The position numbers and the translations under genes are program-made. This document shows positions 499 through 42,055 of a DNA stretch of 43,182 nucleotides, one piece after another; the first letter of the stretch is position 1, and every line of letters starts with the position of its first letter. Below the pieces are notes generated by a model that saw only the letters and a program-made list of their open reading frames with translations, ran no database searches and had not been told where the DNA came from. Origin of the DNA: a virus; IMG/VR virus record IMGVR_UViG_3300010151_000026, positions 1 to 43,182 of that record; one strand, given 5' to 3'.

Positions 499-727
499 TG
501 ACCCCACACAGAAAATTATTGACTTTCCAAACGCAGATGTAATGACGTTTGATAAGACAGTACGTTCTATTATAGAGAACCTGTTTGATTATGATAGCGA
601 CCACGGATATCTAACTGCTACTATTAATCGTGGTAAAGATAACGAGGCTGAAGTAACTATGCTGTTTAAGATCATCTCTATTAATCAGATCGATCTTGAG
701 AACCTAACTGAAAAGGATGTAGCATAA
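485..727 (+). CDS. Hypothetical small acidic protein, 80 aa
   Basis: Unrecognised soluble protein that starts inside the end of the preceding gene. A GAGGAG sequence about 11 nt upstream can serve as ribosome binding site. It has no cysteine pairs, membrane segments or known motif. The stop overlaps the ATG of the CobS-like ATPase gene (TAATG), so it is co-translated with the CobS/CobT-like pair. It may be an accessory to that pair or an unrelated early protein. Confidence 0.65.
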   Translation: MEDYSDPTQKIIDFPNADVMTFDKTVRSIIENLFDYDSDHGYLTATINRGKDNEAEVTMLFKIISINQIDLENLTEKDVA

Positions 728-1836
728 TGGGAAGCATGAAAAGTATGTATGACCCTGATGTAATTGCCAATATGGTCAGGGATGGTGATGCTGATAACAA
801 GGTAGATCAGGTATCAGATAAGTTAGATGAACTAAATGATATTAAAGACCATCAGTGGAGTACTCAGTCAGGCATTCGGCACACTACCTTTGGTGAGCTA
901 TTCAACTGGAAGCCTACGCTAGTACCTAAGACACTACCTATTGCCATATTCAAGGAGAAGGACTGGCATGAAGCTGCTCGTCCTATGATACCAGAACGTA
1001 ATCCTAATTGGATCTGGCCGAAGCTATCTACTGAGAAGTTTGCTGCTGCTATGTATAGTATGGATACTACGTTATGCTTTGGATTGCAAGGCACAGGTAA
1101 GTCAGACCTAGCTAAGCAATGGGCTGCTCTTACTTGCCAACCATTCTGGAGGATGAACTGTAATGCAGAGACAAGAGACGCACACTTTACTGGCAACGTC
1201 GGCATCGAGTACGATGACGATGGTAATCCGCACATCAAACAGGAAGCAACTGCTCTCACTGATTCACTCCGCTATGGTGGAATCTTCTGTGAGGATGAGG
1301 CGTTCCGTCATTCATCTGCTCTCGTATTACAGTCCCTACGTGAGAAGGCTAGTAGATTCCTACTCTTACCGAATGCTAGTGGGATGAATGCTACTGAACG
1401 TAAGATGGTAGCTCCTATTGGACGGTGGCAGTACGTTATGACTGACAATACATCAGGACTAGGTGATGAGACTGGTACTTTCCAAGCTGAAGTTCAGGAC
1501 TCTTCTACATTGGATCGTATTGATACTTGTATTGAGATGGACTATTTAGGTAAGCCAGAAGAACGTAAGATACTTAATAAGTATGCACCCAATCTTAATA
1601 AGACACAAGTGGACAGTATGCTTGACTATGCTAAAGGTATACGAGCTTCCTTTCGTAAAGGTGAGGTGCTAAGTACCTTCAGTGTAAGAGCACTGCTTAA
1701 TTGGGCAGATAAGATTAGTATGTATAATGATATGGCAACAGCACTTAAGGTCTGCTGGTTTGATAAGCTAGGTGAGAGTGACAAAGCTGTAGCAGGCGAA
1801 CTGTATCACCAAGTATTTGCAACTAACATTAAGTAA
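727..1836 (+). CDS. cobS-like: CobS-like AAA+ ATPase (MoxR/cobaltochelatase type)
   Basis: AAA+ ATPase of 369 aa. Walker A is GLQGTGKS at residues 119-126, and the Walker B region is GGIFCEDE at 184-191. The sensor-1 stretch DNTSGLGDETG followed by STLDR closely follows the ANTxGLGDxTG...DR pattern of CobS, the ATPase subunit of aerobic cobaltochelatase (from memory). In cellular CobNST, CobS and CobT form the ATP-driven ring that lets CobN insert cobalt into the corrin. No CobN is present here. The next gene is CobT-like, nine bases away, so the two probably form a complex. The alternative role is a MoxR/VWA chaperone pair that remodels other protein complexes. The fold is certain; the metal-insertion role is inferred. 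Confidence 0.88.
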   Translation: MGSMKSMYDPDVIANMVRDGDADNKVDQVSDKLDELNDIKDHQWSTQSGIRHTTFGELFNWKPTLVPKTLPIAIFKEKDWHEAARPMIPERNPNWIWPKLSTEKFAAAMYSMDTTLCFGLQGTGKSDLAKQWAALTCQPFWRMNCNAETRDAHFTGNVGIEYDDDGNPHIKQEATALTDSLRYGGIFCEDEAFRHSSALVLQSLREKASRFLLLPNASGMNATERKMVAPIGRWQYVMTDNTSGLGDETGTFQAEVQDSSTLDRIDTCIEMDYLGKPEERKILNKYAPNLNKTQVDSMLDYAKGIRASFRKGEVLSTFSVRALLNWADKISMYNDMATALKVCWFDKLGESDKAVAGELYHQVFATNIK

Positions 1837-1845
1837 GGAGTAACT

Positions 1846-3774
1846 ATGAGCTACTGGGGCAGGAAGGAGTATTCAGAGCTTGGGTTTGATGACACTACTG
1901 CTTCCGTATTGGAAGTAGATCAAGTACAAAATATTATCAAGCGCAGAGCAGAGAACTTTAACGTCATTGTTGAATGGAGTAAATATGTACACACTGCTTT
2001 AACTACAAACATAGCGGATAGACCGGGGTGGTTTAGGGTTAAACTACCTCATATCAGATCACCTATTGGTAGGGAGGATCTGATCCGTACTTATATGTAT
2101 GTAGTACATGAGTGTGGGCATTTGTTACGTCCTAAAGTATGGGACATTAGCATAGCTGCCAATCCCGGCCCTGAGTTACAGTCAATCTTCAATATAGTAG
2201 AGGATGACAGTATGGAAAGGGATGTGGCTAACCGACATCTAGGTGACGCTCGTACTTTAGGTGAAGGTAATGCCATCACGTGTAAGGATGGTGAGCTATA
2301 CTGGAGGGAAGAAGTAGAGAAAGCTAAAGCTCATGGGATAACCTTTACTGAGGAAGCCTTGAAACCTATGATTACTATGGCGATTCAGATTATGGCTCGT
2401 CGTGAATGGGATGGGTGGTCAAGAGAAGCAGCCGACAACTGGCTCAAGGTAATGCCAGAAGAAGGTAGACCTTTAATGGTAGCCCTTGTTAAAGAGGGCT
2501 GGGTAGACAGGTTCCGTGCTACTAAAGATGAGTATGATAGTTGGAACCTAGCTTGTGACCTGTTCGATAGACTATATCCTACCGATGATCCTAATGAGAA
2601 ACAAGAACGGGAGGAAATTCGTGAAGCTGGTAATAAAGGAGAACCAAGAGAGACTGAGGACAATGGACAGGGGGATACCGGGGCTGACGGTAACGATGAT
2701 AACGAAAGCAGGGAAGTATCACACACTGGGCAAGATAAAGAAAGCATTGAAGGACATGAGAACGCTGACGATCAAGGTTACGTTATCAACTGGAAAGACA
2801 TAGTAATGTCTGAACATGACAAGGAAGGGTTCTCATATCCTACTGGTGGAGCAGCCGGAATTACATTTGAAGGTAGACAACCTGATAGTAAGATAGCTTT
2901 CGCACCTGACAGTGAGAACAATGTCATTGACCTAACTGGTAAAGACTGTCGTACTATACTAGCTGAAGCAGATGACCGAGGTTGGGCAAGGAAAGGACGT
3001 AGTGCTAGTAACTTCTTACATAAAAATCACAGTGCTAGAGCATTAGCTAATAAGGTACGACGATATGTGCAATCTCAAAGTAGGACTAAGTTCAGGACAG
3101 ACAGGGAACACGGTACCATTAACAGTCAAGAAGTTACGAGACTCCTTCTTCCACCCATCGACAAGGGTAACTGGAACCGTAGAGTATTCTATGATTATAC
3201 CACTAAGCGACACCTTAACACGGCAGTCCACATACTAGTAGACTGGTCTGGTTCTATGGCTGGTGACAAACAAGTGTATGCTGCTGAAGCAGCGATGAGG
3301 GCAGGTTCTATATTTGCTAAGGCATTACGGATGCCTTGTATGATAACATCCTTCACTACTCACTGTACATTTAGTGACCTAGCTATTATAAAGCACTTTG
3401 ACAAGCCAGCTAGTGATAAGCAAATGGCAGAAAGGTTTGGTATCTGGAGTAGTTGGTCCGGTGGTAACAATGATGCTGATGCTGTACTCTGGGCATACCG
3501 TAGATTAATGGAGCGTAAAGAACCACGCAAGTTACTATTCGTAATGTCGGATGGGGCACCAGCTGGTTCTTATGAAGGACAATCACACGATTGTTTACTA
3601 ACTGCCACCCGGCAGATACAGGACAGTAGTCCAGTTGAATTGTTTGGGCTAGGTATTAAGTCAGACGCAGTCAAGGAATACTATGATAATTATCGAGTAG
3701 TGCATGGACTAGAAGATATTAACAACGCACTATTTGAAGTACTTAAGGAGAGTGTAACTTATGAAAATAGATGA
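1846..3774 (+). CDS. cobT-like: CobT-like protein: HExxH-type N-terminus plus C-terminal VWA domain
   Basis: 642 aa, preceded by AAGGAG. Residues 80-130 carry a zinc-peptidase-like signature (HECGH at 88-92, then a NIVEDDSMER stretch). Residues about 250-315 are a highly acidic low-complexity linker, as in CobT proteins. The C-terminal third is a von Willebrand A domain with an intact MIDAS: DWSGS at 466-470, threonines near 504 and SDG at 568-570. VWA proteins of this type partner MoxR/CobS ATPases, and the CobS-like gene lies directly upstream. Phage CobT-like proteins are known. Whether this one supports cobalamin synthesis or acts as a chaperone or protease scaffold cannot be told from sequence. 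Confidence 0.85.
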   Translation: MSYWGRKEYSELGFDDTTASVLEVDQVQNIIKRRAENFNVIVEWSKYVHTALTTNIADRPGWFRVKLPHIRSPIGREDLIRTYMYVVHECGHLLRPKVWDISIAANPGPELQSIFNIVEDDSMERDVANRHLGDARTLGEGNAITCKDGELYWREEVEKAKAHGITFTEEALKPMITMAIQIMARREWDGWSREAADNWLKVMPEEGRPLMVALVKEGWVDRFRATKDEYDSWNLACDLFDRLYPTDDPNEKQEREEIREAGNKGEPRETEDNGQGDTGADGNDDNESREVSHTGQDKESIEGHENADDQGYVINWKDIVMSEHDKEGFSYPTGGAAGITFEGRQPDSKIAFAPDSENNVIDLTGKDCRTILAEADDRGWARKGRSASNFLHKNHSARALANKVRRYVQSQSRTKFRTDREHGTINSQEVTRLLLPPIDKGNWNRRVFYDYTTKRHLNTAVHILVDWSGSMAGDKQVYAAEAAMRAGSIFAKALRMPCMITSFTTHCTFSDLAIIKHFDKPASDKQMAERFGIWSSWSGGNNDADAVLWAYRRLMERKEPRKLLFVMSDGAPAGSYEGQSHDCLLTATRQIQDSSPVELFGLGIKSDAVKEYYDNYRVVHGLEDINNALFEVLKESVTYENR

Positions 3775-4102
3775 GCATACTATAGAGATTAAGATTCCAA
3801 CGCAACGCCCAATAATAACAGGGCTGCTGGCAACGATAGGGTACGCCCTACTTGTATTCAATACAATACTACCATACTATGGGTTATCAATGGGGGTTAT
3901 AAATGGGGGTGTGGCTATTGGATTATTTATTATCCTGCACATCACATCTCATGCAGTATCAAACCTACTGAATCAGCAATACTATGAGATGGCGATGGAT
4001 AGAGCAGCACTTAAGTTATTGATTGATAAGGTAAAAGAAACGGGAACTTTTCCTTATGAAGATAGTCTAAACAATTCGCAAGGAGAGGTAGATGAGGACT
4101 AA
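3761..4102 (+). CDS. Small membrane protein, 113 aa
   Basis: Residues about 18-67 form two closely spaced hydrophobic segments (GLLATIGYALLVFNTI and VINGGVAIGLFIILHI). They are followed by a hydrophilic acidic C-terminus. It starts 14 nt inside the CobT-like gene with AAGGAG about 11 nt upstream. It is too far from the lysis block and in the wrong operon to be an obvious holin. The last 60 bases contain a perfect sigma-E-type promoter (4043-4070), so this gene marks the end of the first early segment. No family was recognised. Confidence 0.7.
   Translation: MKIDEHTIEIKIPTQRPIITGLLATIGYALLVFNTILPYYGLSMGVINGGVAIGLFIILHITSHAVSNLLNQQYYEMAMDRAALKLLIDKVKETGTFPYEDSLNNSQGEVDED
4043..4070 (+). promoter_or_regulatory. 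Sigma-E-type promoter, rightward, before the replication block
   Basis: GGAACTT (4043-4049), then 15 nt, then GTCTAA (4065-4070). This equals GAACTT-16-TCTAA, the arrangement I remember for E. coli rpoE P2. A start site 6-8 nt downstream would fall at about 4076-4078, just before the AAGGAGAGG ribosome binding site of the gene at 4092. It would drive primase, helicase, polymerase and everything to the sigma gene at 13776. It lies inside the C-terminal codons of the preceding gene. Confidence 0.75.
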
Positions 4103-4403
4103 TAGAATTCCAATAGCTCCAGCAGACGGTGACATAGAGGAGACAGTTAAGCTGTTCCAGTCCAAGTACCGACAAGTAATAACAGAAAATAATAAGCATG
4201 ACACTGAAGATGAGGGTAGCGGTGGCCCGGTACCACCATGTATTCTACCTAGTGGCTGGATGAAGAGGCTCAAGAAGCCGGGTAAAGTATACGAGTATGA
4301 TAGAACAGAGATACTAAATTACAATGAAATCCAGTACGTTCATGGACCGGAACATGCTAAAGCATGGGCTGATAGGAGGTGGCATGAACGGGATCGGAAG
4401 TAA
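4092..4403 (+). CDS. Hypothetical protein, 103 aa, first gene of the replication block
   Basis: Unrecognised hydrophilic protein with an acidic N-terminal half and a basic, tryptophan-containing C-terminus (HAKAWADRRWHERDRK). AAGGAGAGG at 4080-4088 precedes the ATG. It overlaps the preceding gene by 11 nt and the primase gene by 20 nt. Because it is the first gene after the sigma-E-type promoter and precedes the primase, a replication accessory role is possible, but no motif supports it. Confidence 0.65.
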   Translation: MRTNRIPIAPADGDIEETVKLFQSKYRQVITENNKHDTEDEGSGGPVPPCILPSGWMKRLKKPGKVYEYDRTEILNYNEIQYVHGPEHAKAWADRRWHERDRK

Positions 4404-5235
4404 ATTAGAAGAGTATGTTGATGAGCTAGAAACTGGTGAGACTATACGCATCAATCACAGTAGCTGTCCAGCAGGGGAGGACACCAGACGTAGGCTATAC
4501 ATCACCAAGAAACCTGATGTTGTCCTAGCTTACTGTCATAACTGTGGCGAAAGTAGTAGCAGATACATTAGTTCAAGAGACAGATACCGTGATCATAGAA
4601 GTGCCAAGTGGTTTAAAGAACCAACACCCAGTGAATATGTGGAACCCTTGGTAGTTAGATTTGGAGATGTAAAAAATATACCAGTAGAAGCAGAGGCATG
4701 GCGTATTAAAAGCAAGCTGTCACGCCAACAGTGTGAAGATAATAAGATCTTCTATGTACCTGATAGTGATGCTATTTATCTACCGTTCTTTGCAATGGAT
4801 GGTTTCACTAATGGATACCAACTCAGACCTTTACATAAGCATGGAGCTAAATATATTAATTGTGTTAAGGATAACGATGAAGAACTAGGTGGTATTATAA
4901 GTAATCCAACGCAATCAAATGATACCTTAGTAATAGTAGAGGATCTGGTATCAGGTATACACATTATAGAGGCTGGCTATGATGCACTAGTTAATTATGG
5001 TACTCATGTCAAGCCTACTATTTTGTTCCGTGCTATCCAAGAGAAGTATAAAGACTATGTGATTTGGTTGGATAATGACAACAAAGTAGTAGATGAAAAA
5101 GCAAGACAGATGTACGATATACTACATATGTATAAACATACGGATCAATCTGTACGGTTAATTCAAGACGCTAATGATCCTAAGCACCATAATGAAATTA
5201 ATATCTCAAAGGAGGTAGAAAATGGACGTACTTGA
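4384..5235 (+). CDS. DNA primase with zinc-binding N-terminus and TOPRIM domain
   Basis: 283 aa from the ATG at 4384, chosen because AGGAGG (4374-4379) lies five bases upstream. The N-terminus has H25/C28 and C51-x2-C54 (YCHNCG), a zinc-binding set as in gp4-type primases. The TOPRIM core follows: VEDLVSG around 185-191 supplies the glutamate and WLDND at 228-232 supplies the DxD. It makes RNA primers for lagging-strand synthesis. In T7 the primase and helicase are one protein; here they are separate genes overlapping by 14 nt. Primase activity is predicted with confidence. The partner is questionable because the helicase-like protein next door lacks ATPase residues. Confidence 0.88.
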   Translation: MNGIGSKLEEYVDELETGETIRINHSSCPAGEDTRRRLYITKKPDVVLAYCHNCGESSSRYISSRDRYRDHRSAKWFKEPTPSEYVEPLVVRFGDVKNIPVEAEAWRIKSKLSRQQCEDNKIFYVPDSDAIYLPFFAMDGFTNGYQLRPLHKHGAKYINCVKDNDEELGGIISNPTQSNDTLVIVEDLVSGIHIIEAGYDALVNYGTHVKPTILFRAIQEKYKDYVIWLDNDNKVVDEKARQMYDILHMYKHTDQSVRLIQDANDPKHHNEINISKEVENGRT

Positions 5236-6493
5236 TTTAGATATTCTCACCTTCTTAAGTGACCGTTCTAACTACGAGAAATATGGTGAGGTAGTAGACA
5301 AGGGACTATGCACTAAAGTCAGTTGGCGTTTAGTACAGGACTTCGGTGAGTACTATGAGAATCACCCGGAAGTACAACAGATAGATAGTGACTTCACACT
5401 GTGGTTTAGAGTTGATAAACATCCGGGTATGAAATCAGATGAGGCCGAAAGCTATGGCGCAATCATCAATAACATTCAGAGTAAGAAGGACGATGGGTTC
5501 GGAGTCAGTGATACATTCGTAGATACCCTTAAGATGGCTAGAACAAAGGCTACTATTTTACATCTAACCGATGATCTTGACTCAGGACGTATCAACCTTA
5601 GCGAATTTTCAACTAGAGTATCAGCACTATACGAGCCAATAAGAGCAGGAGATTCTGGTGGGCCTGTTATACTTGACCTTGAGGAACTTGCCAAGAATGG
5701 TAGAGACAAGAACGGAGTATACTGGAGGCTTGAAGATCTCAATAAATCTGTAGGTCCAATACGGAAAGGTGATCTGGTCATCGTTGCTAAACGACCAGAA
5801 GTAGGAGGGACTAGCTTCCTAGCTAGTGAACTGACCTTCATGTTTGAACAGCTAGGAGATAAAGATGCTGTAATCTTTAACAATGAGGAAGCCCCTGATA
5901 AGATTTATACTAGGGTGGTATCGGCAGCTCTTGGTGTAGATTACCGTACTATGATGTCGAATCCAGTACACTATGCCAATGAGTATACTAAGTTTCTTGA
6001 TGGGAGAAAGATTGATATTATCCACAGTACTTCAATGCTAGCATCGGATATTAGGAGACGGCTTGACAGTGGTAACTATGGTTTATTAGGAGTTAATGTA
6101 CTTCTTAAGGTAGGGGTACCCGGACGAATGGAGGACCATGACAAGCTACAGTATGTTGGTGAGGAACTACGAAGCCTTGCATCCGACTACTGTCCGGTCA
6201 TTGGGATTACACAAGCTGATCCGTCAGCAGAAGGAGTAAGATATATTCATCAGGATCGTATCTATAAGAGCAAGACAGCCTTGCAAGGTGAGGCTGATGT
6301 CCTGTTGATGATTGGTATGGACTACGATGAGCCACCTGATACACGGTTCATTCATGTAGCCAAGAATAAGATCCCACCTGCACCATGTACTGATCCAAGC
6401 GTGAGTCATATCATGTCCGAGATTAAGTTCGATGGTCAGCTAGGTAGGTTCAGTAGTAAATTATTTAAGGGGAACAGTCGTGCCTTCAAGTAA
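5222..6493 (+). CDS. DnaB/gp4-type replicative helicase-like protein with degenerate ATPase motifs
   Basis: 423 aa with an excellent ribosome binding site (AAAGGAGG). The C-terminal RecA-like core is recognisable: AKRPEVGGTS at 189-198 in the P-loop position, NNEEA at 220-224, GITQAD with Q331, and SKTALQGEAD near the end. The P-loop lysine is Gly196 (GGG at 5807-5809), and the place of the Walker B aspartate appears to be Asn292 (LLGVNVLLK). Both residues are needed for ATP hydrolysis in DnaB-family helicases. It may be an inactive paralogue, a helicase loader or mediator, or an enzyme using other residues. Position between primase and polymerase fits a replisome role. Confidence 0.82.
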   Translation: MDVLDLDILTFLSDRSNYEKYGEVVDKGLCTKVSWRLVQDFGEYYENHPEVQQIDSDFTLWFRVDKHPGMKSDEAESYGAIINNIQSKKDDGFGVSDTFVDTLKMARTKATILHLTDDLDSGRINLSEFSTRVSALYEPIRAGDSGGPVILDLEELAKNGRDKNGVYWRLEDLNKSVGPIRKGDLVIVAKRPEVGGTSFLASELTFMFEQLGDKDAVIFNNEEAPDKIYTRVVSAALGVDYRTMMSNPVHYANEYTKFLDGRKIDIIHSTSMLASDIRRRLDSGNYGLLGVNVLLKVGVPGRMEDHDKLQYVGEELRSLASDYCPVIGITQADPSAEGVRYIHQDRIYKSKTALQGEADVLLMIGMDYDEPPDTRFIHVAKNKIPPAPCTDPSVSHIMSEIKFDGQLGRFSSKLFKGNSRAFK

Positions 6494-8375
6494 GATAGTA
6501 GAAGATATCTATTTTGATCTGGAAACTACAGCACGTGGTCCAGATAGTAGCCCCGAAGCACACTATAAAGAGAACTATCTTGTAATGTGTGGTTACACGG
6601 CGTGGGGTCATTATAATTATAGTAATACTATAGATGATCTAGTCAGAGAAGTGGAACGTATGTTGCATGATGGTTCACGACCTAGACTAATAGCACACAA
6701 TCTTAAGTTTGATCTTAAGTGGCTACTCCGACTAGCACCAGAAGTACCGTGGCATATGTGTGAGTTTTATTGCACCATGACCGCCGAATACAGGATCAGT
6801 GGTCATCGTACTAAGTTCATATCATTAGAGAAAGCTGCTACTAACTATAGTATCTCATTGAAAAAGACACTAGATCTCGGTGCCCTAATAAAACAAGGCG
6901 TTGATGTCGCTGACATTGATAAGAAAGACTTAAGTAAATATCTAGAGCAAGATGTTAAGCTGCTTCGTGCAGTGTATATAAGCCAAGAGCAAGCTGGTTA
7001 TGATTTTGATTATATCCTACCTTTAGCACGGATGGAATTGAATGGACTACCTCTACATGAGGAAAAAACTAGGGGAGAACTCAAGAGTCTGGCTGGCATA
7101 CATGCCGCTGCTATTAGGGTAGTAGAGTCTAATATCAGATCTAGTCTTGTGTGGTCAGACGGTACTGCTGTAAATAGTGGGGACTTCAAACCACTAGCAC
7201 CCCGTACTATCAGCTACTACCTGACTGGCTATCCTGAGCATGGACTAGGTGGTAAGAATGATAAGAAGCATGTCGTATTTAAGCAAGGGCACGGTCCACA
7301 CCTCGATCAGACAAAGATCAAAAGCGTATGGTCTGCTGAACCTAATCCAAACCTAGGCTACCCTATTAATGTAGGAGTATTAGATGATCTAGTCAAGCAG
7401 TCTCCTGTAGTAGCAGCATACAAAGAAGCGAAAGATGCTAACAAGATTATCAACACTTATCTTATACCCTTCCTTACCGAAGCTAAGCATACTGGTGGTA
7501 CCATCCATCCTAAGCTTAATACTTGTAGCACCAACACGGGAAGACTTAGCTCTAGTAACCCGAACGGACAGAACATACCACCAACAGTACGAAACTTAAT
7601 TAAAAGTACAGAAGGTTACATCTACGAGATCGACTTCGCTCAACTAGAAATGATTGGAGCAGCAACCTTGTCACGAGATTCTAAGATGATCTCTGATATT
7701 TTAGATGGGAGGGACATCCACTTTGAATCAGGGAAGGAGGTATTTCAATGGAAGACTCCAGCAGATATGACCAAGGAAGAACGACGTACTGTGAAGGGTG
7801 TAAACTTCGGACTGCTATATGGTGGTGGGGCAGCAGGAATCAGTGAGAATACTGGTGCTAATAAGGCTACTGTTAAGAAGCTAATAGCTTCCTTCTATGA
7901 AAGGTATCCGGGTGTTAAGGACTGGCAAGATGAAGTTTATCAGGAGATCACTAGGTGTCCTTGGGTAGAAGGGCATAAGGATGGCGAATCTTATCGAGCT
8001 GCTATTTGGACAGCTCCAGCTGAACATGGCAGACGACGGTATTACTTTGAGGAATCAGCCAGTCCGTTATGGAAACAACGACAAGATGGCAGGACGTTTA
8101 GCTTCAAGCCTACCGAAACTAAGAACTATCCGATTCAGGGATTCGCAGGGGGTGACATTGTGATGTGTGCTCTTAGTGTTCTTGATGCAGTACTAGCCTT
8201 CACGGATGCTAAACTACGTATGACAGTACATGACTCCATCGTAGTAGACTGGAGCAAGGATAAAGAGAGAGACCTAGAACATATTATGAACAAGGTGTGT
8301 GAGTTGGTACGCACCGAACTGAGTATACCAGTGCCTCTGGTATATGATATAGAAGCCGAAGTGTATTGGCTATAG
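6480..8375 (+). CDS. polA-like: Family-A DNA polymerase with 3'-5' exonuclease
   Basis: 631 aa from a GTG at 6480, preceded by AAGGGG and overlapping the helicase gene by 14 nt. Exonuclease motifs are D13-x-E15, HNLKFD ending at D78, and Y154-x3-D158. Polymerase motif A is EIDFAQLE (D385). Motif B runs R435, K439, F443, Y447 (KGVNFGLLYG). Motif C is VHDS (H584, D585). No 5'-3' nuclease domain is present, as in T7 gp5. Phe443 corresponds to E. coli Phe762, the residue used in viral ecology to group phage PolA types. All catalytic residues are present, so this should be the active replicative polymerase. Confidence 0.95.
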   Translation: MPSSKIVEDIYFDLETTARGPDSSPEAHYKENYLVMCGYTAWGHYNYSNTIDDLVREVERMLHDGSRPRLIAHNLKFDLKWLLRLAPEVPWHMCEFYCTMTAEYRISGHRTKFISLEKAATNYSISLKKTLDLGALIKQGVDVADIDKKDLSKYLEQDVKLLRAVYISQEQAGYDFDYILPLARMELNGLPLHEEKTRGELKSLAGIHAAAIRVVESNIRSSLVWSDGTAVNSGDFKPLAPRTISYYLTGYPEHGLGGKNDKKHVVFKQGHGPHLDQTKIKSVWSAEPNPNLGYPINVGVLDDLVKQSPVVAAYKEAKDANKIINTYLIPFLTEAKHTGGTIHPKLNTCSTNTGRLSSSNPNGQNIPPTVRNLIKSTEGYIYEIDFAQLEMIGAATLSRDSKMISDILDGRDIHFESGKEVFQWKTPADMTKEERRTVKGVNFGLLYGGGAAGISENTGANKATVKKLIASFYERYPGVKDWQDEVYQEITRCPWVEGHKDGESYRAAIWTAPAEHGRRRYYFEESASPLWKQRQDGRTFSFKPTETKNYPIQGFAGGDIVMCALSVLDAVLAFTDAKLRMTVHDSIVVDWSKDKERDLEHIMNKVCELVRTELSIPVPLVYDIEAEVYWL

Positions 8376-8383
8376 GAGTAAGT

Positions 8384-8881
8384 ATGAAAGTATCAGGTGT
8401 AATTGATAGTATTGTAAGTAAAACGGTAGGTAATGGTGGTACTGTGTACACTGCTGTTATCGACGGAACCGAAGTTGATCTTGGATTTAGATGCCCTCAT
8501 AATGAAGGTGAGTATGTTGACCTTGATGTTGAATCTACCAAGTGGGGGCTTAAGATAACCCAGCCGGGAGCACGGAGGTCAGTACAAGCAGCGAGTGCGC
8601 CAGCTAGACAGCAGAACAACAGCACTAGAACAGCTGCCCAAAAGAGTAAGCAGTTCCCAGTTGACCCTGACTCTAAAGACCACATCATCATCAGGCAGAA
8701 TGCCTTGACCAATGCCAACGCAGCAGTGGCGAGTGCTATAGCTGCTGGTGCTAAGTATAAGTCTGCCGAGGAAGTATTCAATGAAGTTATTAAGGTTGCG
8801 TATAATCTTACTGGCTTTGCAATGGGAACACTTGATGCTACCTTAGTAGCGGAGGCTAGGGCAAAGCAAGAGGATGCGTAA
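8384..8881 (+). CDS. Possible ssDNA-binding protein, 165 aa
   Basis: Start taken at the ATG at 8384, with AGGAG seven bases upstream. The first 65 residues alternate beta-strand patterns (VIDSIVSKTVG, TVYTAVIDGTEVDLGF, EYVDLDVESTKWGLKI), which suits a small OB-like fold. An alanine/glutamine-rich linker follows, then a helical C-terminal domain starting IIIRQNALTNANAAV. Phage proteins with such a RQxAL helical tail often lie beside replication genes. Its place between polymerase and a Cas4-like nuclease fits an ssDNA-binding or recombination accessory protein. The fold is inferred from pattern only. Confidence 0.5.
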   Translation: MKVSGVIDSIVSKTVGNGGTVYTAVIDGTEVDLGFRCPHNEGEYVDLDVESTKWGLKITQPGARRSVQAASAPARQQNNSTRTAAQKSKQFPVDPDSKDHIIIRQNALTNANAAVASAIAAGAKYKSAEEVFNEVIKVAYNLTGFAMGTLDATLVAEARAKQEDA

Positions 8882-8929
8882 GCTAGCCTTGATATTAATT
8901 GCAATCCTACTTTTATTCTAGGAGGACAC

Positions 8930-9829
8930 ATGAAACAAGTCGGAGACGTAGAGCAAGACATCTATACAATACTTGATAGCTCTGTGGATCACGGCCCATC
9001 GCCAGATAAAGCTGCCGAATATGCTATGCGTATCGGTGGTGAGATGGCGAAAGCAACCCGGCCCCGTTCTTCGGAACGGGAGTCCGGTAAGCTGTGGGCT
9101 AGTGACCTTGGAGAGTCTTGTAATCGTAAGACCTACTATAAGTTCTGTGAACCAGACAAGGCTGCTCCCCTAATGGGACACACCAAGTTTAAGTTCTTGT
9201 ATGGTAACATACTTGAGGAAGCCGCCCTGTATTTGGCAGAGGAAGCAGGTCATGAGGTCAAGTACCAACAAGAGTCTGTTAAAGTACAACTTGATGACGA
9301 TTGGCAGGTATCAGGTAGGATTGACGCAGTAATCGACGGTGTACTAGTTGATGTCAAGTCCACCAGTTCTTTCGGATATAAGAAGTACAGTAAGGAAGGA
9401 CTCAACGCTACTAACGATAGCTTCGGTTATTTATGGCAGTTAGGATACTACCATAACTTCATGCCTACTACTGATAGGAACCCTGATGAAGCTGGCTTCC
9501 TTTGGATTGATAAACAGAATGGACACCTACTCTATCAGGATGTAACTCCAGAGTTACCTTCTAAGAATGAACTACACCATCGGATCTCCGATAAGGTCGA
9601 GGTTATCAACAAAGAGGAGGAACCTGAACGGACGTTCTTACCTATACCTGAAGGCAAGTCAGGTAACATGAAGCTAGATATCAAGTGTAGTTACTGTGAC
9701 TTTAAGAAGCATTGCTGGAGAGACGCTAACGGAGGGAAAGGTCTACGTACCTTCTTGTATGGCTGGGGGCCAATTAGTCTTACCGAAGTTAAGAGAGAAC
9801 CTAGAGTACAGGAGATTAACAATGCCTGA
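8930..9829 (+). CDS. Cas4/RecB-like PD-(D/E)XK exonuclease with Fe-S cysteines
   Basis: 299 aa with a strong ribosome binding site (AGGAGG). The nuclease core is GRID (D132), then D141-V-K143 (LVDVKS), then WQLGYY (Q170). Cys64, together with C253, C256 and C262 (CSYCDFKKHC), gives the one-plus-three arrangement that holds a 4Fe-4S cluster in Cas4 and AddB-type nucleases. Such phage enzymes are thought to process DNA ends for recombination, repair or host DNA breakdown. There is no CRISPR array in the window, so a CRISPR role is unlikely. A 7-bp perfect hairpin with a TTCG loop lies within the gene at 9063-9080. Confidence 0.85.
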   Translation: MKQVGDVEQDIYTILDSSVDHGPSPDKAAEYAMRIGGEMAKATRPRSSERESGKLWASDLGESCNRKTYYKFCEPDKAAPLMGHTKFKFLYGNILEEAALYLAEEAGHEVKYQQESVKVQLDDDWQVSGRIDAVIDGVLVDVKSTSSFGYKKYSKEGLNATNDSFGYLWQLGYYHNFMPTTDRNPDEAGFLWIDKQNGHLLYQDVTPELPSKNELHHRISDKVEVINKEEEPERTFLPIPEGKSGNMKLDIKCSYCDFKKHCWRDANGGKGLRTFLYGWGPISLTEVKREPRVQEINNA

Positions 9830-10121
9830 CTGGATTGGAACAGATGAAGAACTGGAGGAAGAAATGTCTAATACAATAGAGTGGCCTGAGCCTATACCAT
9901 GTGAGGTACACCACCCGGAACACTATACGGCAGGTGGTATCGAAGCACTCGATGTGTTGAAGGCTAAACTAACACCGGAGGAGTACCAAGGATATCTTAA
10001 AGGTAATATCTTGAAGTATCTACTTCGTGCTAATTTCAAAGGCTCACACCACAAGGACGTTGGTAAGTCAGTCTTTTATGCAGAGGAGTTGCTTGATGCC
10101 ACGCAGGAAACGGAAACCTAA
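9822..10121 (+). CDS. DUF3310 family protein, 99 aa
   Basis: ATG at 9822 with AGGAG about nine bases upstream, overlapping the nuclease gene by eight nt. Residues 31-72 fit the DUF3310 pattern: HPEHYTAGGIEALDVL followed by GNILKYLLRANFKG. These small proteins are widespread in phages beside nucleotide-metabolism and replication genes and are sometimes called SaV-like or nucleotide kinase-like; their activity is not established. Its start was set at 9822 because earlier in-frame codons lie deep inside the nuclease gene. Confidence 0.8.
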   Translation: MPDWIGTDEELEEEMSNTIEWPEPIPCEVHHPEHYTAGGIEALDVLKAKLTPEEYQGYLKGNILKYLLRANFKGSHHKDVGKSVFYAEELLDATQETET

Positions 10122-10539
10122 AGAACCCTTTCGCTCACTATACGAAGAGAAGATAGGCGACTGGCTTGAGGAGAATGGAATTGAATACGGGTATGAACTT
10201 TACAGTTTTGAATATGAAGGACCAGTGCGTAGAAATAGGAGCCGTTGCAGCGACTGCGGCTCTAAAGAACTTGTGTATGATGGCCGGTATACACCCGATT
10301 TCTTTGTGGGAACTAACTGTATCATTGAAGCAAAGGGTAGATTCACTGCGTCTGACCGTAGAAAAATCAAAGCCGTAAAGGAAACGGTACCTGAACTAAA
10401 GGAGAAGTTAGTAATGATGTTTATGACAGACAATAAACTAAACCGTAGTGCCAAGATGCGATACTCTGATTGGTGCGAGCAGGAAGGTATCGACTATATA
10501 GTAGGTACTGAACCTAAGAAGGAGTGGTTAAATGGCTAG
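10096..10539 (+). CDS. Endonuclease I (T7 gp3-like Holliday junction resolvase)
   Basis: 147 aa from the ATG at 10096 (AGAGGAG upstream). It follows T7 endonuclease I closely: FRSLYEEKI places the first catalytic glutamate at E17, RYTPDF gives D68, and IIEAKGRF gives E78 and K80, the E/D/E/K set of the T7 enzyme. It resolves branched DNA during replication and packaging and helps degrade host DNA. Compared with T7 there is an insertion of about a dozen residues before the YTPDF strand, containing C51-x2-C54 (RCSDCGSKE). Only one CxxC pair is visible, so zinc binding would need a dimer or other ligands. Confidence 0.9.
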   Translation: MPRRKRKPKEPFRSLYEEKIGDWLEENGIEYGYELYSFEYEGPVRRNRSRCSDCGSKELVYDGRYTPDFFVGTNCIIEAKGRFTASDRRKIKAVKETVPELKEKLVMMFMTDNKLNRSAKMRYSDWCEQEGIDYIVGTEPKKEWLNG

Positions 10540-11305
10540 ACGATTGAACCCGATGAAGATACTGTATCTTGACATCGAGACTGCACCAAGTGAGGCTGTA
10601 GTATTTTCGTTGCGACAAAGATACATTAATCCTAATCAAATTAAAGAAGCTGGATACACATTGTGTTGGGCAGCTAAGTGGGAAGGTGACAGAAATATAC
10701 AGTACTTTGGCCTTGATACTCACTCTGCCGATGAGATGGTTTATGCCATGCACGATCTGCTGATGCAGGCCGACGCAGTTATCCACTACAATGGTACGAA
10801 GTTTGACATGCCCACTCTGAACAGGGACTTCATTAAGCACGGGCTACCTCCGGTATCCCATGTCCATGAGATAGACTTGCTCAAGACAGTACGCAAGAGG
10901 TTCAGGTTCGAGTCTAACAAGCTGGACTACGTATGTCGTATGCTAGGACTCGGTGCTAAAGAACAGCACAAAGGGCTGGCCTTATGGACTGAATGTATGG
11001 AAGGGCTAGCAGCAGCGTGGCGTAAAATGCAATCATATAATAAGCAGGATGTCAAGCTCTTACCTAAGTTATATAAGGTACTGTTACCGTGGATAGCAGG
11101 GCATCCCAACGTAGGTCTATATAAAGAGAGTCAGCTACCAGTCTGTATGCACTGTGGTTCTACTAACCTACAGGAATTACAGCAGTCGTATACTAGTAAG
11201 ACACTGAAGTACAAAGCTTTTGTTTGTAACACTTGCCACACCCCACTTCGTTCTAACAAAAGTGAGGGACAACCACAAGGACACCTTACGGTGCGTGTGA
11301 ACTAA
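10532..11305 (+). CDS. DnaQ-like (DEDDy) 3'-5' exonuclease with C-terminal zinc ribbon
   Basis: 257 aa, with AAGGAG upstream of the ATG at 10532. DEDD motifs are LDIET (D14, E16), HYNGTKFD (D92) and Y169-NKQ-D173, which makes it a DEDDy-type RNase H-fold exonuclease. The C-terminal 60 residues hold a zinc ribbon, C205-x2-C208 and C232-x2-C235. The polymerase already has its own proofreading domain, so this enzyme probably serves recombination, repair, RNA primer removal or nucleotide scavenging. The following tiny gene starts on its stop codon (TAATG). Confidence 0.85.
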   Translation: MARRLNPMKILYLDIETAPSEAVVFSLRQRYINPNQIKEAGYTLCWAAKWEGDRNIQYFGLDTHSADEMVYAMHDLLMQADAVIHYNGTKFDMPTLNRDFIKHGLPPVSHVHEIDLLKTVRKRFRFESNKLDYVCRMLGLGAKEQHKGLALWTECMEGLAAAWRKMQSYNKQDVKLLPKLYKVLLPWIAGHPNVGLYKESQLPVCMHCGSTNLQELQQSYTSKTLKYKAFVCNTCHTPLRSNKSEGQPQGHLTVRVN

Positions 11306-11433
11306 TGGAGAGAGAAGATGCGGTATTCTACTTAGAGGAACTATATGAATACCTTAACGAGAACTTTAGCAATCTCGGTATACCCGAAGAATGGCTGATC
11401 GCAATAGAAGAAGCAGTAGAAAGGGCTGAGTAA
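11305..11433 (+). CDS. Very small acidic protein, 42 aa
   Basis: A 42-codon frame starts at an ATG that overlaps the exonuclease stop (TAATG) and ends in a TAA that overlaps the ATG of nrdJ (TAATG). The product is acidic and helical (EREDAVFYLEELYEYLNEN, then IPEEWLIAIEEAVERAE). Both junctions are perfect coupling overlaps, which argues for a real translated gene rather than a chance frame. No family was recognised. Its position could make it a small partner of NrdJ or of the exonuclease. Confidence 0.6.
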   Translation: MEREDAVFYLEELYEYLNENFSNLGIPEEWLIAIEEAVERAE

Positions 11434-13319
11434 TGATGGACTTATATCAACAATACATCCATAAAAGCCGTTACGCTAGATATCTACCGGATGAGAAGCG
11501 GCGGGAAACTTGGGAGGAAACCGTAGATAGATACATGACCTTTATGGCAGAGAATCTATCTAAGAACGTAGACTACGAGCTATCAGATAAGACGTATAAC
11601 GAGTTACGTGATGCTATCTTATGTATGGAAATCATGCCTAGCATGAGGGCCATGATGACAGCAGGGCGAGCATTAGAACGGGACCATGTAGCAGGGTACA
11701 ACTGTGCTTATGTTCCTATTGATGACAGGAAAGTATTCGATGAGATCATGTACATACTGCTCTGCGGAACTGGGGTTGGCTTTAGTGTAGAACGAGAATA
11801 TACCAGTCAATTACCAGAGATACCAAAAGAGTTCTTCCCGGCATCGGCTACTATAAATGTTGCTGACTCTAAAATAGGGTGGGCCTCTGCTCTCAGAAAA
11901 TTTATATCTTTGTTATATGATGGACAAGTACCTGAAGTTGACTACTCAAAAGTACGGTCAGCAGGTATGCCACTTAAGACATTCGGAGGTAGGGCTAGTG
12001 GTCCTGAGCCACTACAGGAGTTGTTTCAGTTTATCTATACTATCTTTGATGGTGCAAAGGGGAGACAACTAACTGACTTGGAGTGCCATGACATCGTATG
12101 TAAGATCGCTGAGTCGGTAGTAGTTGGTGGTGTCCGTCGCTCTGCTCTTATCAGTCTGTCAAACCTACAGTCTGAGAGACTTAGGGGAGCTAAACAAGGG
12201 ACTTGGTACTACGCTGATCCTCAACGAGCGTTGTCTAACAACTCTGTCTGTTACACAGAAACGCCTGACACTGGTGTGTTTCTGAAAGAGTGGTCAGCAT
12301 TATATGAATCAAAGTCAGGAGAACGTGGCATATTCAGCCGAGCTACAGCAGAGGCGGATCTACCTGAGCGGCGAGAAGGTGGACACGCTTGGGGAACCAA
12401 CCCATGCAGTGAGATTATCCTTCGACCCCGGCAGTTCTGTAATCTTACAGAAGTAGTGTGTCGTGGAGATGATAGTACGGACGACTTGAAGCGGAAGATT
12501 AGGCTTGCAACAATCCTTGGTACTTTCCAATCAACCTTTACTTCTTTCCGATATCTCAGTAAGCGTTGGCAGTCTAACTGTGAAGAGGAACGGTTACTTG
12601 GTGTATCACTCACTGGTATACAAGATTGTAAATTGCTTAGTATGGGTACACTCCAAATTACTCTAGATGATTTACTAGAAAATTTGAAAGCCTATTCGAT
12701 TAATGTAAATTCACGATGGGCAACGGAACTCGGTATACAAAGATCAGCTGCAATCACCTGCGTTAAGCCATCAGGAACTGTCAGCCAGCTAACTAATTCG
12801 AGTAGCGGTATCCACCCAAGATACGCACCGTACTATGTACGCAGAGTTCGACAGTCCAAGTCTGACCCTCTTAGTCAAGCTCTTATAGATGCAGGAGTAC
12901 CACATGAAACTGACGTTACAAACGAAAGTACATGGGTCTTTACATTTCCACAAGCTTCTCCTGAAGGGAGTGTGTGCGTTAGCGATGTAGCAGCAATTTC
13001 ACAACTGAAACACTGGAAGATATTCGATAAATCCTACTGTGAACATAAGCCCTCTGTTAGTATATACGTACGAGAGGACGAGTGGCTGGCGGTGGGAGCA
13101 TGGGTATTCTGTAACTTCGATGCTATATCAGGAGTATCTTTTTTCCCAGTAGATGAACACACCTACCGACAAGCTCCATATCAGGCAATCGAGAAGGAGG
13201 AATGGGAAGGTCTTATGGCAGAGTTTCCAGATGAAATAGATTGGAATGTAAATGAAGAAATAGATAGCACTACATCTAGCCAAGAGCTAGCGTGTGCAGG
13301 AGGTGCTTGTGAATTATGA
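11433..13319 (+). CDS. nrdJ: Class II (adenosylcobalamin-dependent) ribonucleotide reductase, monomeric type
   Basis: 628 aa. The N-terminus (RRETWEETVDRYM, IMPSMRAMMTAGRALERD, YNCAY) and the core NPCSEIILRPRQFCNLTE match the Lactobacillus-type ribonucleoside triphosphate reductase. Active-site residues are C91, C325, E327 and C336. The C-terminal redox pair is C621/C626 (CAGGACEL), with the same spacings as C408/E410/C419 and C731/C736 in the L. leichmannii enzyme. It is about 110 residues shorter than that enzyme but keeps all catalytic residues. It makes dNTPs without oxygen or a second subunit but needs coenzyme B12. No thioredoxin or glutaredoxin gene was seen nearby, so the reductant is presumably the host's. 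Confidence 0.93.
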   Translation: MMDLYQQYIHKSRYARYLPDEKRRETWEETVDRYMTFMAENLSKNVDYELSDKTYNELRDAILCMEIMPSMRAMMTAGRALERDHVAGYNCAYVPIDDRKVFDEIMYILLCGTGVGFSVEREYTSQLPEIPKEFFPASATINVADSKIGWASALRKFISLLYDGQVPEVDYSKVRSAGMPLKTFGGRASGPEPLQELFQFIYTIFDGAKGRQLTDLECHDIVCKIAESVVVGGVRRSALISLSNLQSERLRGAKQGTWYYADPQRALSNNSVCYTETPDTGVFLKEWSALYESKSGERGIFSRATAEADLPERREGGHAWGTNPCSEIILRPRQFCNLTEVVCRGDDSTDDLKRKIRLATILGTFQSTFTSFRYLSKRWQSNCEEERLLGVSLTGIQDCKLLSMGTLQITLDDLLENLKAYSINVNSRWATELGIQRSAAITCVKPSGTVSQLTNSSSGIHPRYAPYYVRRVRQSKSDPLSQALIDAGVPHETDVTNESTWVFTFPQASPEGSVCVSDVAAISQLKHWKIFDKSYCEHKPSVSIYVREDEWLAVGAWVFCNFDAISGVSFFPVDEHTYRQAPYQAIEKEEWEGLMAEFPDEIDWNVNEEIDSTTSSQELACAGGACEL

Positions 13320-13331
13320 GGAGAAGTTATA

Positions 13332-13574
13332 ATGCCACTGTATGATTTCAGATGTGAACACTGCGCTCATACTTTTGAACATAGATGTAAGTACCGAGAA
13401 TTAAAAGACTTTCCACCAGCATGTCCTAAATGTACATCCAACTTTACGAAACGAGTATGGTTGTCAGCACCATCATCGGACAGAGCTAAAGACCCGTACG
13501 ATTATTTGGATGGGCCAATCCCAGATGCCAAGAGAATTTTCTCTGGGCCTAAAGTCAGTAGTAAAACACGTTAG
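13332..13574 (+). CDS. FmdB-type zinc ribbon protein, 80 aa
   Basis: Starts MPLYDFRCEHC, the typical N-terminus of the FmdB/CxxC_CxxC_SSSS family, with C9-x2-C12 and a second pair in CPKC. The ribbon fills the first 45 residues, and the tail is polar. Family members are small zinc proteins of uncertain role, some considered regulatory. GAGGAG precedes the ATG, and the gene lies 12 nt after nrdJ in the same operon. A role in transcription control is possible, given the sigma factor two genes downstream, but unproven. Confidence 0.8.
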   Translation: MPLYDFRCEHCAHTFEHRCKYRELKDFPPACPKCTSNFTKRVWLSAPSSDRAKDPYDYLDGPIPDAKRIFSGPKVSSKTR

Positions 13575-13585
13575 GAGGTACGACA

Positions 13586-13795
13586 ATGAATAGTAGTGAA
13601 GCCGACGCTGTTGGTGCAAGAGGTCTATTAAATCTTGAAAGTACTACAGCTGCCGAATTTCTTCAGCTTATATTTGGTATGCTGGAGGCTACCGGATTAG
13701 ATGGTACAGGAACAGTAATTGAATTTGAAGATATAGATGGTCTTGCTAAATCTGTGTGGATAGAGATATGGAACGATGATCTTGAAATACAGTAG
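13586..13795 (+). CDS. Hypothetical small acidic protein, 69 aa
   Basis: Well placed start with AGGAGG upstream. The protein is soluble and acidic (LEATGLDGTGTVIEFEDIDG, WIEIWNDDLEIQ) without recognisable motif. Its last 20 bases overlap the sigma factor gene, whose own ribosome binding site is poor, so translation of the sigma factor may depend on this gene. It might be a leader or a partner (for example an anti-sigma protein), but no family similarity supports the latter. Confidence 0.65.
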   Translation: MNSSEADAVGARGLLNLESTTAAEFLQLIFGMLEATGLDGTGTVIEFEDIDGLAKSVWIEIWNDDLEIQ

Positions 13796-14366
13796 TCTCT
13801 CGACAGACGCTCAGTTGGTCCGACGGGTTCAGAAGGGCGACAAGGGGGCGTTCGACTTGTTAGTATTGAAATACCAGTACAAGATTACCAAGTTGATAAC
13901 GCGATATATACGAGATCCAGATCAGGCTTTGGATATTACACAGGAAACTTTTCTCAAAGCTTATCGGGCACAGCCACGGTTTCGTGGCTACAGCTCGTTC
14001 TATACGTGGCTCTACCGGATCGCTGTTAATACAGCCAAGAACTATTTGACTGCTACTAAGAGACGACCACTAGATCTAGAGTTAAACCTACAAGAGCCTG
14101 AGCAATATGATCTCCATGCGAAACTAAAGGAGACAGATACACCAGAAGGGCTGACACTTAGTAAGGAATTACACGCTACTCTCAAGGAAGCAATAGAGGC
14201 TCTGCCGGAAGCTCTTCGTAAGGCACTACTGCTACGTGAACTCGATGGTATGAGTTACGAAGAGATAATGCAGACGATGAATTGTCCGGCAGGGACCGTA
14301 CGATCAAGGATCTACAGAGCTAGGAACGCTATAGACAAAAAGATTGGGAGCTATTATGAATGGTAA
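13776..14366 (+). CDS. rpoE-like: RpoE-like ECF sigma factor
   Basis: 196 aa, strikingly close to gammaproteobacterial RpoE (191 aa in E. coli). Region 2 spans about 25-95, with the promoter-melting stretch FYTWLYRIAVNTAKNYL at 75-91. Region 4 spans about 138-190, with LRELDGMSYEEI and the -35 recognition helix GTVRSRIYRAR at 173-183, nearly identical to E. coli RpoE as I recall it. It should bind host core RNA polymerase and recognise GGAACTT...TCTAA promoters. Two exact such sites lie at 4043-4070 and 41642-41669. It sits near the end of the rightward operon downstream of the first site, so it should stimulate its own expression. It overlaps the previous gene by 20 nt. Probably captured from a host genome. 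Confidence 0.93.
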   Translation: MILKYSSLSTDAQLVRRVQKGDKGAFDLLVLKYQYKITKLITRYIRDPDQALDITQETFLKAYRAQPRFRGYSSFYTWLYRIAVNTAKNYLTATKRRPLDLELNLQEPEQYDLHAKLKETDTPEGLTLSKELHATLKEAIEALPEALRKALLLRELDGMSYEEIMQTMNCPAGTVRSRIYRARNAIDKKIGSYYEW

Positions 14367-14628
14367 ACGAGCACGTAGAATACGTAGAGGTATACAGTAC
14401 AAAAAAAGCCCGGACCATTTAGTGGAACCGGGCGGACTACGAGAAGAGGATGGTAAATTGTACTTTAAGTTTGCTAAAAATGACCATGCGAATCAGTATC
14501 GCTGGTGGAAGAAGGGAGTAGCATGTGGTAAGATTGCACCTGAGCTAGTAAACCACCTAGGACATCGACAAGCACCTCATCATCAGACAACTCAGGATGG
14601 CCTGAATAGTGGAGAAGAAAATGAGTAA
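14356..14628 (+). CDS. Hypothetical small basic protein, 90 aa, last rightward gene
   Basis: ATG at 14356 with GGGAG six bases upstream, overlapping the sigma gene by 11 nt. The N-terminus is very basic (MNGKRARRIRRGIQYKKS) and there is a WWKKG stretch in the middle. The gene runs over the leftward terminator (14401-14433), and its second half is antisense to the leftward metallopeptidase gene. The good start signal argues for translation, but the overlap leaves some doubt about the C-terminal half. No family was recognised; nucleic acid binding would fit the charge. Confidence 0.5.
   Translation: MNGKRARRIRRGIQYKKSPDHLVEPGGLREEDGKLYFKFAKNDHANQYRWWKKGVACGKIAPELVNHLGHRQAPHHQTTQDGLNSGEENE
14401..14433 (-). 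terminator. Intrinsic terminator ending the leftward late operon
   Basis: Read leftward, GCCCGG (14433-14428) pairs with CCGGGC (14413-14408), with a further inner 3-bp CCA/TGG pairing. The hairpin is followed at once by seven T residues (14407-14401). It lies 40 nt after the last leftward gene and inside the opposite-strand gene at 14356-14628. In the rightward direction there is no T tract, so it should stop only leftward transcripts. Confidence 0.85.
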
Positions 14629-14821
14629 CCTCGTGCCAATAAGTGTGGAGTACAACATCACGAGTGCATCCGGTGGGGAAGAGACGCACCGTATTAGTGC
14701 CAAAGTCGCTGTCTCCGAACTTCCCCACATCACTAGCATGTTCAATCACTACTTTGATCTTATGTCCGAGGAGATTGAAGCTATGAGGCAGTCCTAGCTC
14801 AGCATGAGTCCAACGCTTCAT
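14474..14821 (-). CDS. Predicted small zinc metallopeptidase (HExxH), last leftward gene
   Basis: 115 aa from the ATG at 14821, which lies inside the end of the outer spanin gene. The motif YWHEVTH (H63, E64, H67) is followed by DDEVLVDVLGGLLAQV, whose acidic residues could supply the third zinc ligand. Small phage proteins with this WHE-x2-H...DDE layout are common and are annotated as metallopeptidase-like, though their substrates are unknown. No signal peptide is seen, so it should be cytoplasmic. A strong terminator follows 40 nt downstream. A longer in-frame extension upstream of 14821 is possible but would overlap the spanin gene further. Confidence 0.75.
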   Translation of the reverse strand: MKRWTHAELGLPHSFNLLGHKIKVVIEHASDVGKFGDSDFGTNTVRLFPTGCTRDVVLHTYWHEVTHFLLHYSGHPELSDDEVLVDVLGGLLAQVQSYHMLLPSSTSDTDSHGHF

Positions 14822-15050
14822 CGTGGGCTTTGATTCTTTCTTCAAGGAGTCTTGCGTATTCTTTAAGGGCGAGGTCGTTAATGGTAAACTTCCAGAGAAC
14901 CCCTCTTTCGACTGATTGCTGCTCATCTACTGTAATCTCCACCAGAATAGGACGTTCTGGTAAACAAAGGGGTGGTTCTGGTGGGACGGTTGCACAGCCG
15001 CTACCAATCATTAGGGTTGCTAAGACTATCAACCCCTTTAAACTTTTCAT
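14799..15050 (-). CDS. Outer-membrane spanin lipoprotein (Rz1-like)
   Basis: 83 aa from the ATG at 15050, with GGAG eight bases upstream. A short lipoprotein signal (LKGLIVLATLMIGSGC) ends at a candidate lipobox cysteine, followed by a proline-rich start (TVPPEPPLCLPERP) typical of Rz1. It then has a longer globular or helical C-terminus. It begins within the end of the inner spanin gene (50-nt overlap in another frame), the classic Rz/Rz1 arrangement. The pair bridges inner and outer membranes and fuses them at lysis, so the host has a Gram-negative envelope. Confidence 0.75.
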   Translation of the reverse strand: MKSLKGLIVLATLMIGSGCATVPPEPPLCLPERPILVEITVDEQQSVERGVLWKFTINDLALKEYARLLEERIKAHDEALDSC

Positions 15051-15288
15051 TAGCTTTCTCCAATTCTTTGAGCGCATCTAGCTCACGGTCACGGTATTCT
15101 TCCTTGACCTCTCTTTCCCTTTCTCTTATAATTTTATCTTGTAATACACGGGCAGCTAGCGTGTCACGCTCATACTCTAAGCGCACAACCTTGCCTTTGA
15201 CATATTGTAGACGCACAAAGAAGCCGAGAACTGCCAACAGAACAGTCCCGGCTGCATAGAGTTTAGCTTTGAACCCAAGCCAACTCAC
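15001..15288 (-). CDS. Inner-membrane spanin (Rz-like)
   Basis: 95 aa from a GTG at 15288, with AGGGG six bases upstream. One N-terminal membrane anchor (LYAAGTVLLAVLGFFVRL) is followed by a charged, heptad-like coiled coil (VVRLEYERDTLAARVLQD, REREREVKEEYRDRELDAL). This is the layout of i-spanins. The gene overlaps the preceding small membrane protein gene (GAGTGA) and contains the start of the lipoprotein spanin. No other function fits as well. Confidence 0.75.
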   Translation of the reverse strand: MSWLGFKAKLYAAGTVLLAVLGFFVRLQYVKGKVVRLEYERDTLAARVLQDKIIREREREVKEEYRDRELDALKELEKANEKFKGVDSLSNPNDW

Positions 15289-15512
15289 TCATCACCCCTC
15301 AATAGAGCAGTAGATGTAATAGAACGTAGGAATAAGTTGGATATACCTATACCAAATACCACCCACGGGTAAACTTCAGCAGGTATGAAATCATATAATC
15401 CTACTATCAACTTAGCCAGTCCATCTGTAAATACAACAGCTGTACTGATAAGATTAAACCACACCGTTTTTGATTTATACCACGGCTTACTGGTCGTTGT
15501 TGTTTTGTCCAT
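15285..15512 (-). CDS. Holin-like membrane protein, 75 aa
   Basis: Start at the ATG at 15512 gives MDKTTTTSKPWYKSKTVWFN followed by two hydrophobic segments (LISTAVVFTDGLAKLIVGLY and VYPWVVFGIGISNLFL). The SKxWYKSKTVWFN start before a membrane helix is common in phage holin or holin-like proteins. It lies between endolysin and spanins. With three small membrane proteins in this block, which one makes the lethal hole and which acts as antiholin or pinholin cannot be told; this one, with two membrane helices, is my first choice for holin. Confidence 0.65.
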   Translation of the reverse strand: MDKTTTTSKPWYKSKTVWFNLISTAVVFTDGLAKLIVGLYDFIPAEVYPWVVFGIGISNLFLRSITSTALLRGDE

Positions 15513-15645: not shown

Positions 15646-15646
15646 C

Positions 15647-41375: not shown

Positions 41376-41393
41376 GGTGGTCTCCTGTGAAAT

Positions 41394-42042: not shown

Positions 42043-42055
42043 AGAGGAGAGTAAA

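Follow-up and report, generated by a model that had tools for sequence, protein, structure and literature searches.

The end of a small membrane-protein gene in an uncultured virus carries an exact match to a bacterial sigma-E promoter, just ahead of the replication genes, and the last gene of that block encodes a sigma factor. The locus raises the question of whether this site is a promoter, which sigma factor would read it, and whether the phage sigma acts back on it. The window, by which we mean the whole 43,182-nt stretch analyzed here (IMG/VR virus record IMGVR_UViG_3300010151_000026), is by its sequence a podovirus of the Zobellviridae type, with at most 57% (terminase) and 48% (portal) identity to named members, and its divergent early/late layout is that of ICP2 and P12053L, which are of the same type. 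The replication block (4092-14366, + strand; delineated from ORFs, Pfam, and PHROGs) runs rightward and comprises a small ORF, a primase-like gene, a DnaB-like helicase, a family A polymerase, a Cas4-type exonuclease, an exonuclease, and a ribonucleotide reductase, ending with the sigma gene; the late block of packaging, capsid, tail, and lysis genes (15838-41432, - strand; ORFs and PHROGs) runs leftward. A CobS-like AAA ATPase and a CobT-like VWA gene form a pair at 727-3774, and this pair is also kept directly upstream of promoter A in relatives. The window is not the whole genome, because a 99.8% identical contig (L005) bridges window positions 42184-43182 to position 1 onward and holds between them about 1.8 kb (L005 1020-2866) that is absent from the window. 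A sigma-70-like site on that contig (L005 2425-2452) is no more than chance numbers would give.

The site in question, GGAACTTTTCCTTATGAAGATAGTCTAA at 4043-4070 (+), consists of (i) GGAACTT at 4043-4049, (ii) a 15-base spacer, and (iii) GTCTAA at 4065-4070; we refer to it as promoter A. The pattern GGAACTT-N13..18-GTCTAA has two matches in the window, promoter A and a second one at 41642-41669 (-), both with 15-base spacers, whereas 0.03 are expected and none of 100 shuffles contained two, which confirms the two exact copies of the original prediction. Because GGAACTT by itself occurs at the expected frequency (5 observed versus 4.9 expected), it is the two-part pattern that counts. As had been proposed, promoter A lies within the 3′ end of a membrane-protein gene (3761-4102, +; 113 aa), whose product has two hydrophobic stretches, judged by eye, and is weakly conserved in relatives (29-37% identity). 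The site ends 21 bases 5′ of the ATG at 4092, and transcription is predicted to start at about 4076-4077, just 5′ of the ribosome-binding-site-like AAGGAGAGG (4080-4088, +) that precedes this ATG. The sigma gene (13776-14366, +) does lie about 9.7 kb downstream on the same strand, and the claim that no terminator intervenes holds within the limits of a consensus scan: across 3700-16300 there were 10 terminator-like sites versus 7.0 expected, and the + strand of 4092-13776 has three weak ones, all within genes (4221, 9760, and 12002).

To gather relatives of the window, we searched with the sigma protein, the CobT-like protein, the helicase, the exonuclease, and an alignment of helicases. A search with the cobS-like protein yielded nothing beyond the near-identical contig, and the exonuclease returned 80 loci, mostly from distant phages without the site pair, of which only those sharing many genes were used. 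We defined place A as the stretch from the cobT-like gene to the primase-like gene, which 20 records cover and one (G028) does not reach. Of the 12 motif bases, the best site keeps 10 or more in 18 of the 20 records, all 18 with a spacer of 15, and after removal of near-copies the site is present in 14 of 16. When the place-A stretches were shuffled and any spacer of 13-17 was accepted, the site appeared in 1.8 of 16 on average and in 6 of 16 at most; the observed stretches contain no match with a spacer of 13, 14, 16, 17, or 18, one with a spacer of 12, and one on the reverse strand. Conservation at place A is far above chance. It reaches about 2 bits at almost all motif positions; in the spacer and flanks no position exceeds 1 bit (most are below 0.7), except for a T two bases before GTCTAA (1.6 bits). 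The open frame across the site is identical in all displayed place-A sites except that of G004, and part of the conservation could be protein-level; as its full cause, protein conservation was rejected, given that the spacer and flanks vary, that the frame differs in G004, and that the counterpart at the late block (place B) is mostly noncoding. In the two regions where the place-A site is absent (G030 and G035), a site lies inside the polymerase gene instead. Some relatives have a site of this form inside the DNA polymerase gene (L014 12646-12672, L212 10818-10844, L213 2714-2740, and L217 8675-8701), where a third promoter, before the next gene, is possible.

The second exact copy (41642-41669, -), promoter B, lies upstream of the leftward late block. 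An exact site was found upstream of the first late gene in all seven records in which that gene was identified (G000-G004, G012, and G013), and three others (G027, G029, and G034) have an opposite-strand site whose neighboring genes are unannotated; in most records the place-B site is in noncoding DNA. Using the late form of the motif to search viral contigs gave at least 80 loci; among the 80 listed, 23 encode a homolog of a window protein, and in several of these the site precedes the late block. ARAGORN identified a tRNA-Thr (TGT; 41394-41469, -) that separates promoter B from the first late gene. This gene (ORF 40782-41432) was called with a start that falls inside the tRNA; the GTG at 41375-41373, which follows an AGGAG, is a more probable start codon. 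The divergent region immediately 5′ of promoter B contains a cluster of short hairpins (41790-42053; arms of 8-24 bases, most of them perfect), one of which resembles a two-way terminator. Just past the late -10 box, 41590-41641 can apparently form a stem-loop (by eye), as can the corresponding stretch in most of G001-G004, G012, and G013, though the letters differ; this could be a leader hairpin.

To what extent these sites reach beyond the relatives can be read from two sets of genomes. GAACTW-N14..17-GTCTAA was absent from all nine published Zobellviridae-type genomes examined, and the system thus marks one uncultured branch. Separately, three phage contigs with distant similarity to the window only, chosen for having at least one site (G049, G050, and G052; L342-L349), each contain GAACTW-N15-GTCTAA in four exact copies, where chance would give 0.02 at most; a search of these three for sigma region 2 gave no match.

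We compared the phage sites with bacterial rpoE promoters by scanning the 400 bases upstream of rpoE. The scan covered 79 of the 80 bacterial loci whose sigma is closest to that of the window; selected by that similarity, they are not a random sample. The scan pattern omitted the final A of the -10 box, since requiring it misses GTCTAT sites. GAACTT-N15-GTC was present in 43 of the 79 loci and not found in the other 36; the N16 form occurred in two, while N13, N14, N17, and N18, as well as the reverse strand, gave none. The phage sites thus share the sigma-E grammar and spacing of the host. In the five Woeseiaceae-type loci displayed, the promoter reads GAACTT-N15-GTCTAT, compared with GTCTAA at the phage -10, and the ORF following rpoE is read as RseA by its start. 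In E. coli, the sigma-E promoter has GGAACTT at -35 and TCAAA at -10, as given in PMC2893595. Promoter A thereby combines a -35 GGAACTT with a GTC-type -10 at the spacing of rpoE genes, and its sequence supports the reading of it as a promoter for RNA polymerase carrying an RpoE-type sigma factor.

The product of the last replication-block gene (13776-14366, +; 196 aa) is an RpoE-type ECF sigma factor according to NCBIfam and PDB matches and a tree. It scores 267 bits against the RpoE equivalog model TIGR02939 (NCBIfam; cut-off, 236) and matches phrog_1740 with an E value of 6e-34; its residues 10-190 match the solved AlgU and E. coli RpoE structures (PDB), and a gap-free alignment was obtained between its region 4 and 2h27, a solved chain of E. 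coli sigma-E. Of 78 RpoE columns with 90% or more conservation among the bacteria compared, it retains 75, and it is 79% identical to Woeseiaceae RpoE. In a tree that omits seven long or phage rows (L163, L172, L199, G001, G002, PA11, and CW02), it falls in a clade with six Woeseiaceae-type RpoE proteins (support, 100/99); with all rows kept, the window and the Woeseiaceae-type group are supported at 85/99, with the long G001/G002 branch included. Judged by ORF starts, no RseA-type anti-sigma gene follows the window sigma: the next ORFs (94 and 62 aa) lack the start of the ORF that follows bacterial rpoE, and the 94-aa one has no PHROG match. Another RpoE-like sigma gene (L341 10001-10525; 39% identity to that of the window) was not counted as a relative's, as its 45-kb viral contig (G048) has almost no other similarity to the window and no exact sites.

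Among the relatives, RpoE-type sigma genes are present in the window, G001, and G002. Those of G001/G002 are far more diverged (47% identity to the window sigma) and lie before cobS, i.e., upstream of place A, so that a sigma gene downstream of its own promoter is found in the window and not in G001/G002. No sigma was detected by TIGR02937 in G003 and G004, nor by PF08281, phrog_1740, and PF04542 in G003, G004, G012, and G013; the same profiles did find the G001/G002 genes, and phrog_1740 also those of the phages PA11 and CW02. It was used in place of phrog_3512, a weak sigma probe that missed the latter two. Nor did a search for sigma region 2 find one in G024-G037; of the 19 records in that search, one was positive (G002). 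Four genomes (G004, G013, G027, and G029) have both sites, no sigma region 2 match, and end repeats, as expected of complete genomes. These four speak against tying the promoters to a phage sigma gene, and they make host sigma-E the likely ancestral reader. The simplest account would be that host sigma-E reads the promoters and that the phage rpoE copy is optional, the sigma gene having likely been captured after the promoters were in place. In a phylogeny built on three replication proteins, the genomes with a sigma gene (the window and G001/G002) fail to group together (AU p 0.0001), with the caveat that the tree has long branches and that the genome separating them, G003, is a 37-kb fragment on one of these. 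The G001/G002 sigma is itself too diverged (branch, 2.7) to be placed in the sigma tree. We infer that rpoE was captured at least once; a second, separate capture is likely, though not proven.

These observations were weighed against three other readings. An unlikely one is that the promoters are dedicated to the phage sigma, with host sigma-E uninvolved, and that the switch is built, like that of phage 7-11, around a positive loop, here through promoter A. It would account for the RpoE-type sigma genes of the window and G001/G002, and phage 7-11 does have such a loop, through its promoter P48 (PMC8948821); it fits poorly, however, with complete genomes that keep both sites without a detectable sigma, with the position of the G001/G002 sigma upstream of place A, and with the separation of the sigma carriers in the phage tree, subject to its long branches. 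Less probable still is that, in the sigma-less relatives, the motif is read by a phage-encoded protein that escaped the profiles, either a diverged sigma or a different activator. While many small early ORFs of G004 and G013 have no assignment, the four profiles were empty in the sigma-less genomes tested (all four in G003 and G004, and three also in G012 and G013), and a different protein would leave the match of the motif to bacterial rpoE promoters unexplained. Among the early-region ORFs of G013 is one (16444-16911, as fetched) whose N-terminus we take to be type IV prepilin-like. That the sites are no promoters at all and are conserved for the protein sequence at place A, or as a packaging or replication signal, is very improbable, for although place-A sites are mostly in coding sequence and often in the same frame, the same motif recurs on the other strand in mostly noncoding DNA upstream of the late block, its spacer is fixed at 15 while the spacer letters vary, and the sites match bacterial rpoE promoters.

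We therefore favor, as probable, a reading in which twin sigma-E promoters switch on the replication and the late genes, host sigma-E being the ancestral reader and rpoE a later capture; it is the best explanation because of the sequence of the sites, their fixed 15-base spacer, their conservation in the same place, their match to rpoE promoters, and the RpoE-type phage sigma. Early genes would be transcribed first, from other promoters. Sigma-E, whether released in the host during infection or produced from a phage gene, would then open (i) promoter A, for the replication genes, and (ii) promoter B, for the late block together with its leader tRNA-Thr. Ancestrally, and in most relatives, the promoters would be read by the host's own sigma-E, which is normally held by RseA; no phage gene able to free it from RseA was found. 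The lineage of the window would have taken a Woeseiaceae-like host rpoE, minus the anti-sigma gene, into its replication block, and the sigma-E made there could act back on promoter A and forward on promoter B. Host sigma-E, or read-through of earlier promoters, would supply the initial sigma molecules, and promoter A transcription is assumed to reach 9.7 kb into the sigma gene.

Of the original prediction, the sigma-E promoter stood, on its conservation, its rpoE-type spacing, and the RpoE equivalog in the genome. Positive feedback did not stand as a general account, since relatives keep the promoter without a detectable sigma and the G001/G002 sigma lies upstream of it; in the window itself, feedback through promoter A is plausible. 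The main job of promoter A is most likely to drive the replication genes via host sigma-E, and the loop is best read as a late addition in the window phage, one that would reinforce middle and late transcription dependent on host sigma-E. We give about even chances to the broader proposal that environmental podoviruses of one branch, together with certain other phages such as G049, G050, and G052, put middle and late transcription under the host envelope-stress sigma, and that the capture of rpoE, at least once and probably two times in this branch, converted the sensing of stress into a switch that drives itself. If this is true, replication and particle production would begin only once sigma-E is freed during infection, and the envelope-stress response of marine sediment bacteria is predicted to control the timing of replication of these phages. 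The series from host-read promoters through gene capture to feedback would make the origin of phage sigma systems testable, and the Woeseiaceae-like sigma is a host clue for an uncultured marine-type phage.

Phage sigma factors with feedback are already known. In the phiEco32-like phage 7-11, the late sigma SaPh711_gp47 serves late promoters (GTAAtg-16-aCTA) with the host core polymerase, and its gene lies behind its own promoter in a positive loop seeded by early-promoter read-through, as described in PMC8948821; the same loop idea is set out in the prediction paper PMC4331800. The window resembles 7-11, as portrayed in these sources, in that its sigma would serve late promoters together with the host core polymerase, its sigma gene lies behind one of its predicted promoters, which would close a positive loop, and early promoters could provide the seed transcription. 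It differs in that (i) the 7-11 sigma is far from RpoE, whereas that of the window is a close copy of bacterial RpoE, and (ii) the window promoters are of the host RpoE type and are retained by relatives without a sigma gene. In place of the phiEco32/7-11 pairing of a sigma gene with sigma-specific promoters, the gene is present here and the promoters occur without it. In the literature covered, phages with a characterized late sigma of their own use a separate promoter code to go with it; the code seen here is the one by which the host responds to stress. Nearer to the window, the Zobellviridae-type phages PA11 (Pseudomonas; gp12) and CW02 (Salinivibrio; gp21) likewise have a sigma gene in the replication block, but their sigmas are not RpoE-type (very long branches), and their genomes lack GAACTW-N14..17-GTCTAA sites. 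The open-licence literature searched names no system of phage genes under host sigma-E, nor does it name the combination seen here, namely a host rpoE copy together with host-type RpoE promoters that are kept branch-wide, mostly by sigma-less phages. In the bacterial rpoE loci displayed, the promoter stands directly before the sigma gene and an anti-sigma-like gene follows, whereas in the window the promoter is 9.7 kb off, the replication genes come first, and no RseA-like gene follows. The bacterial counterpart of the loop is the autoregulated rpoE promoter of E. coli (P2, now P6, as described in PMC8103513), along with its equivalents in other gammaproteobacteria; as there, an RpoE-type sigma in the window would raise its own synthesis from a GAACTT-type promoter.
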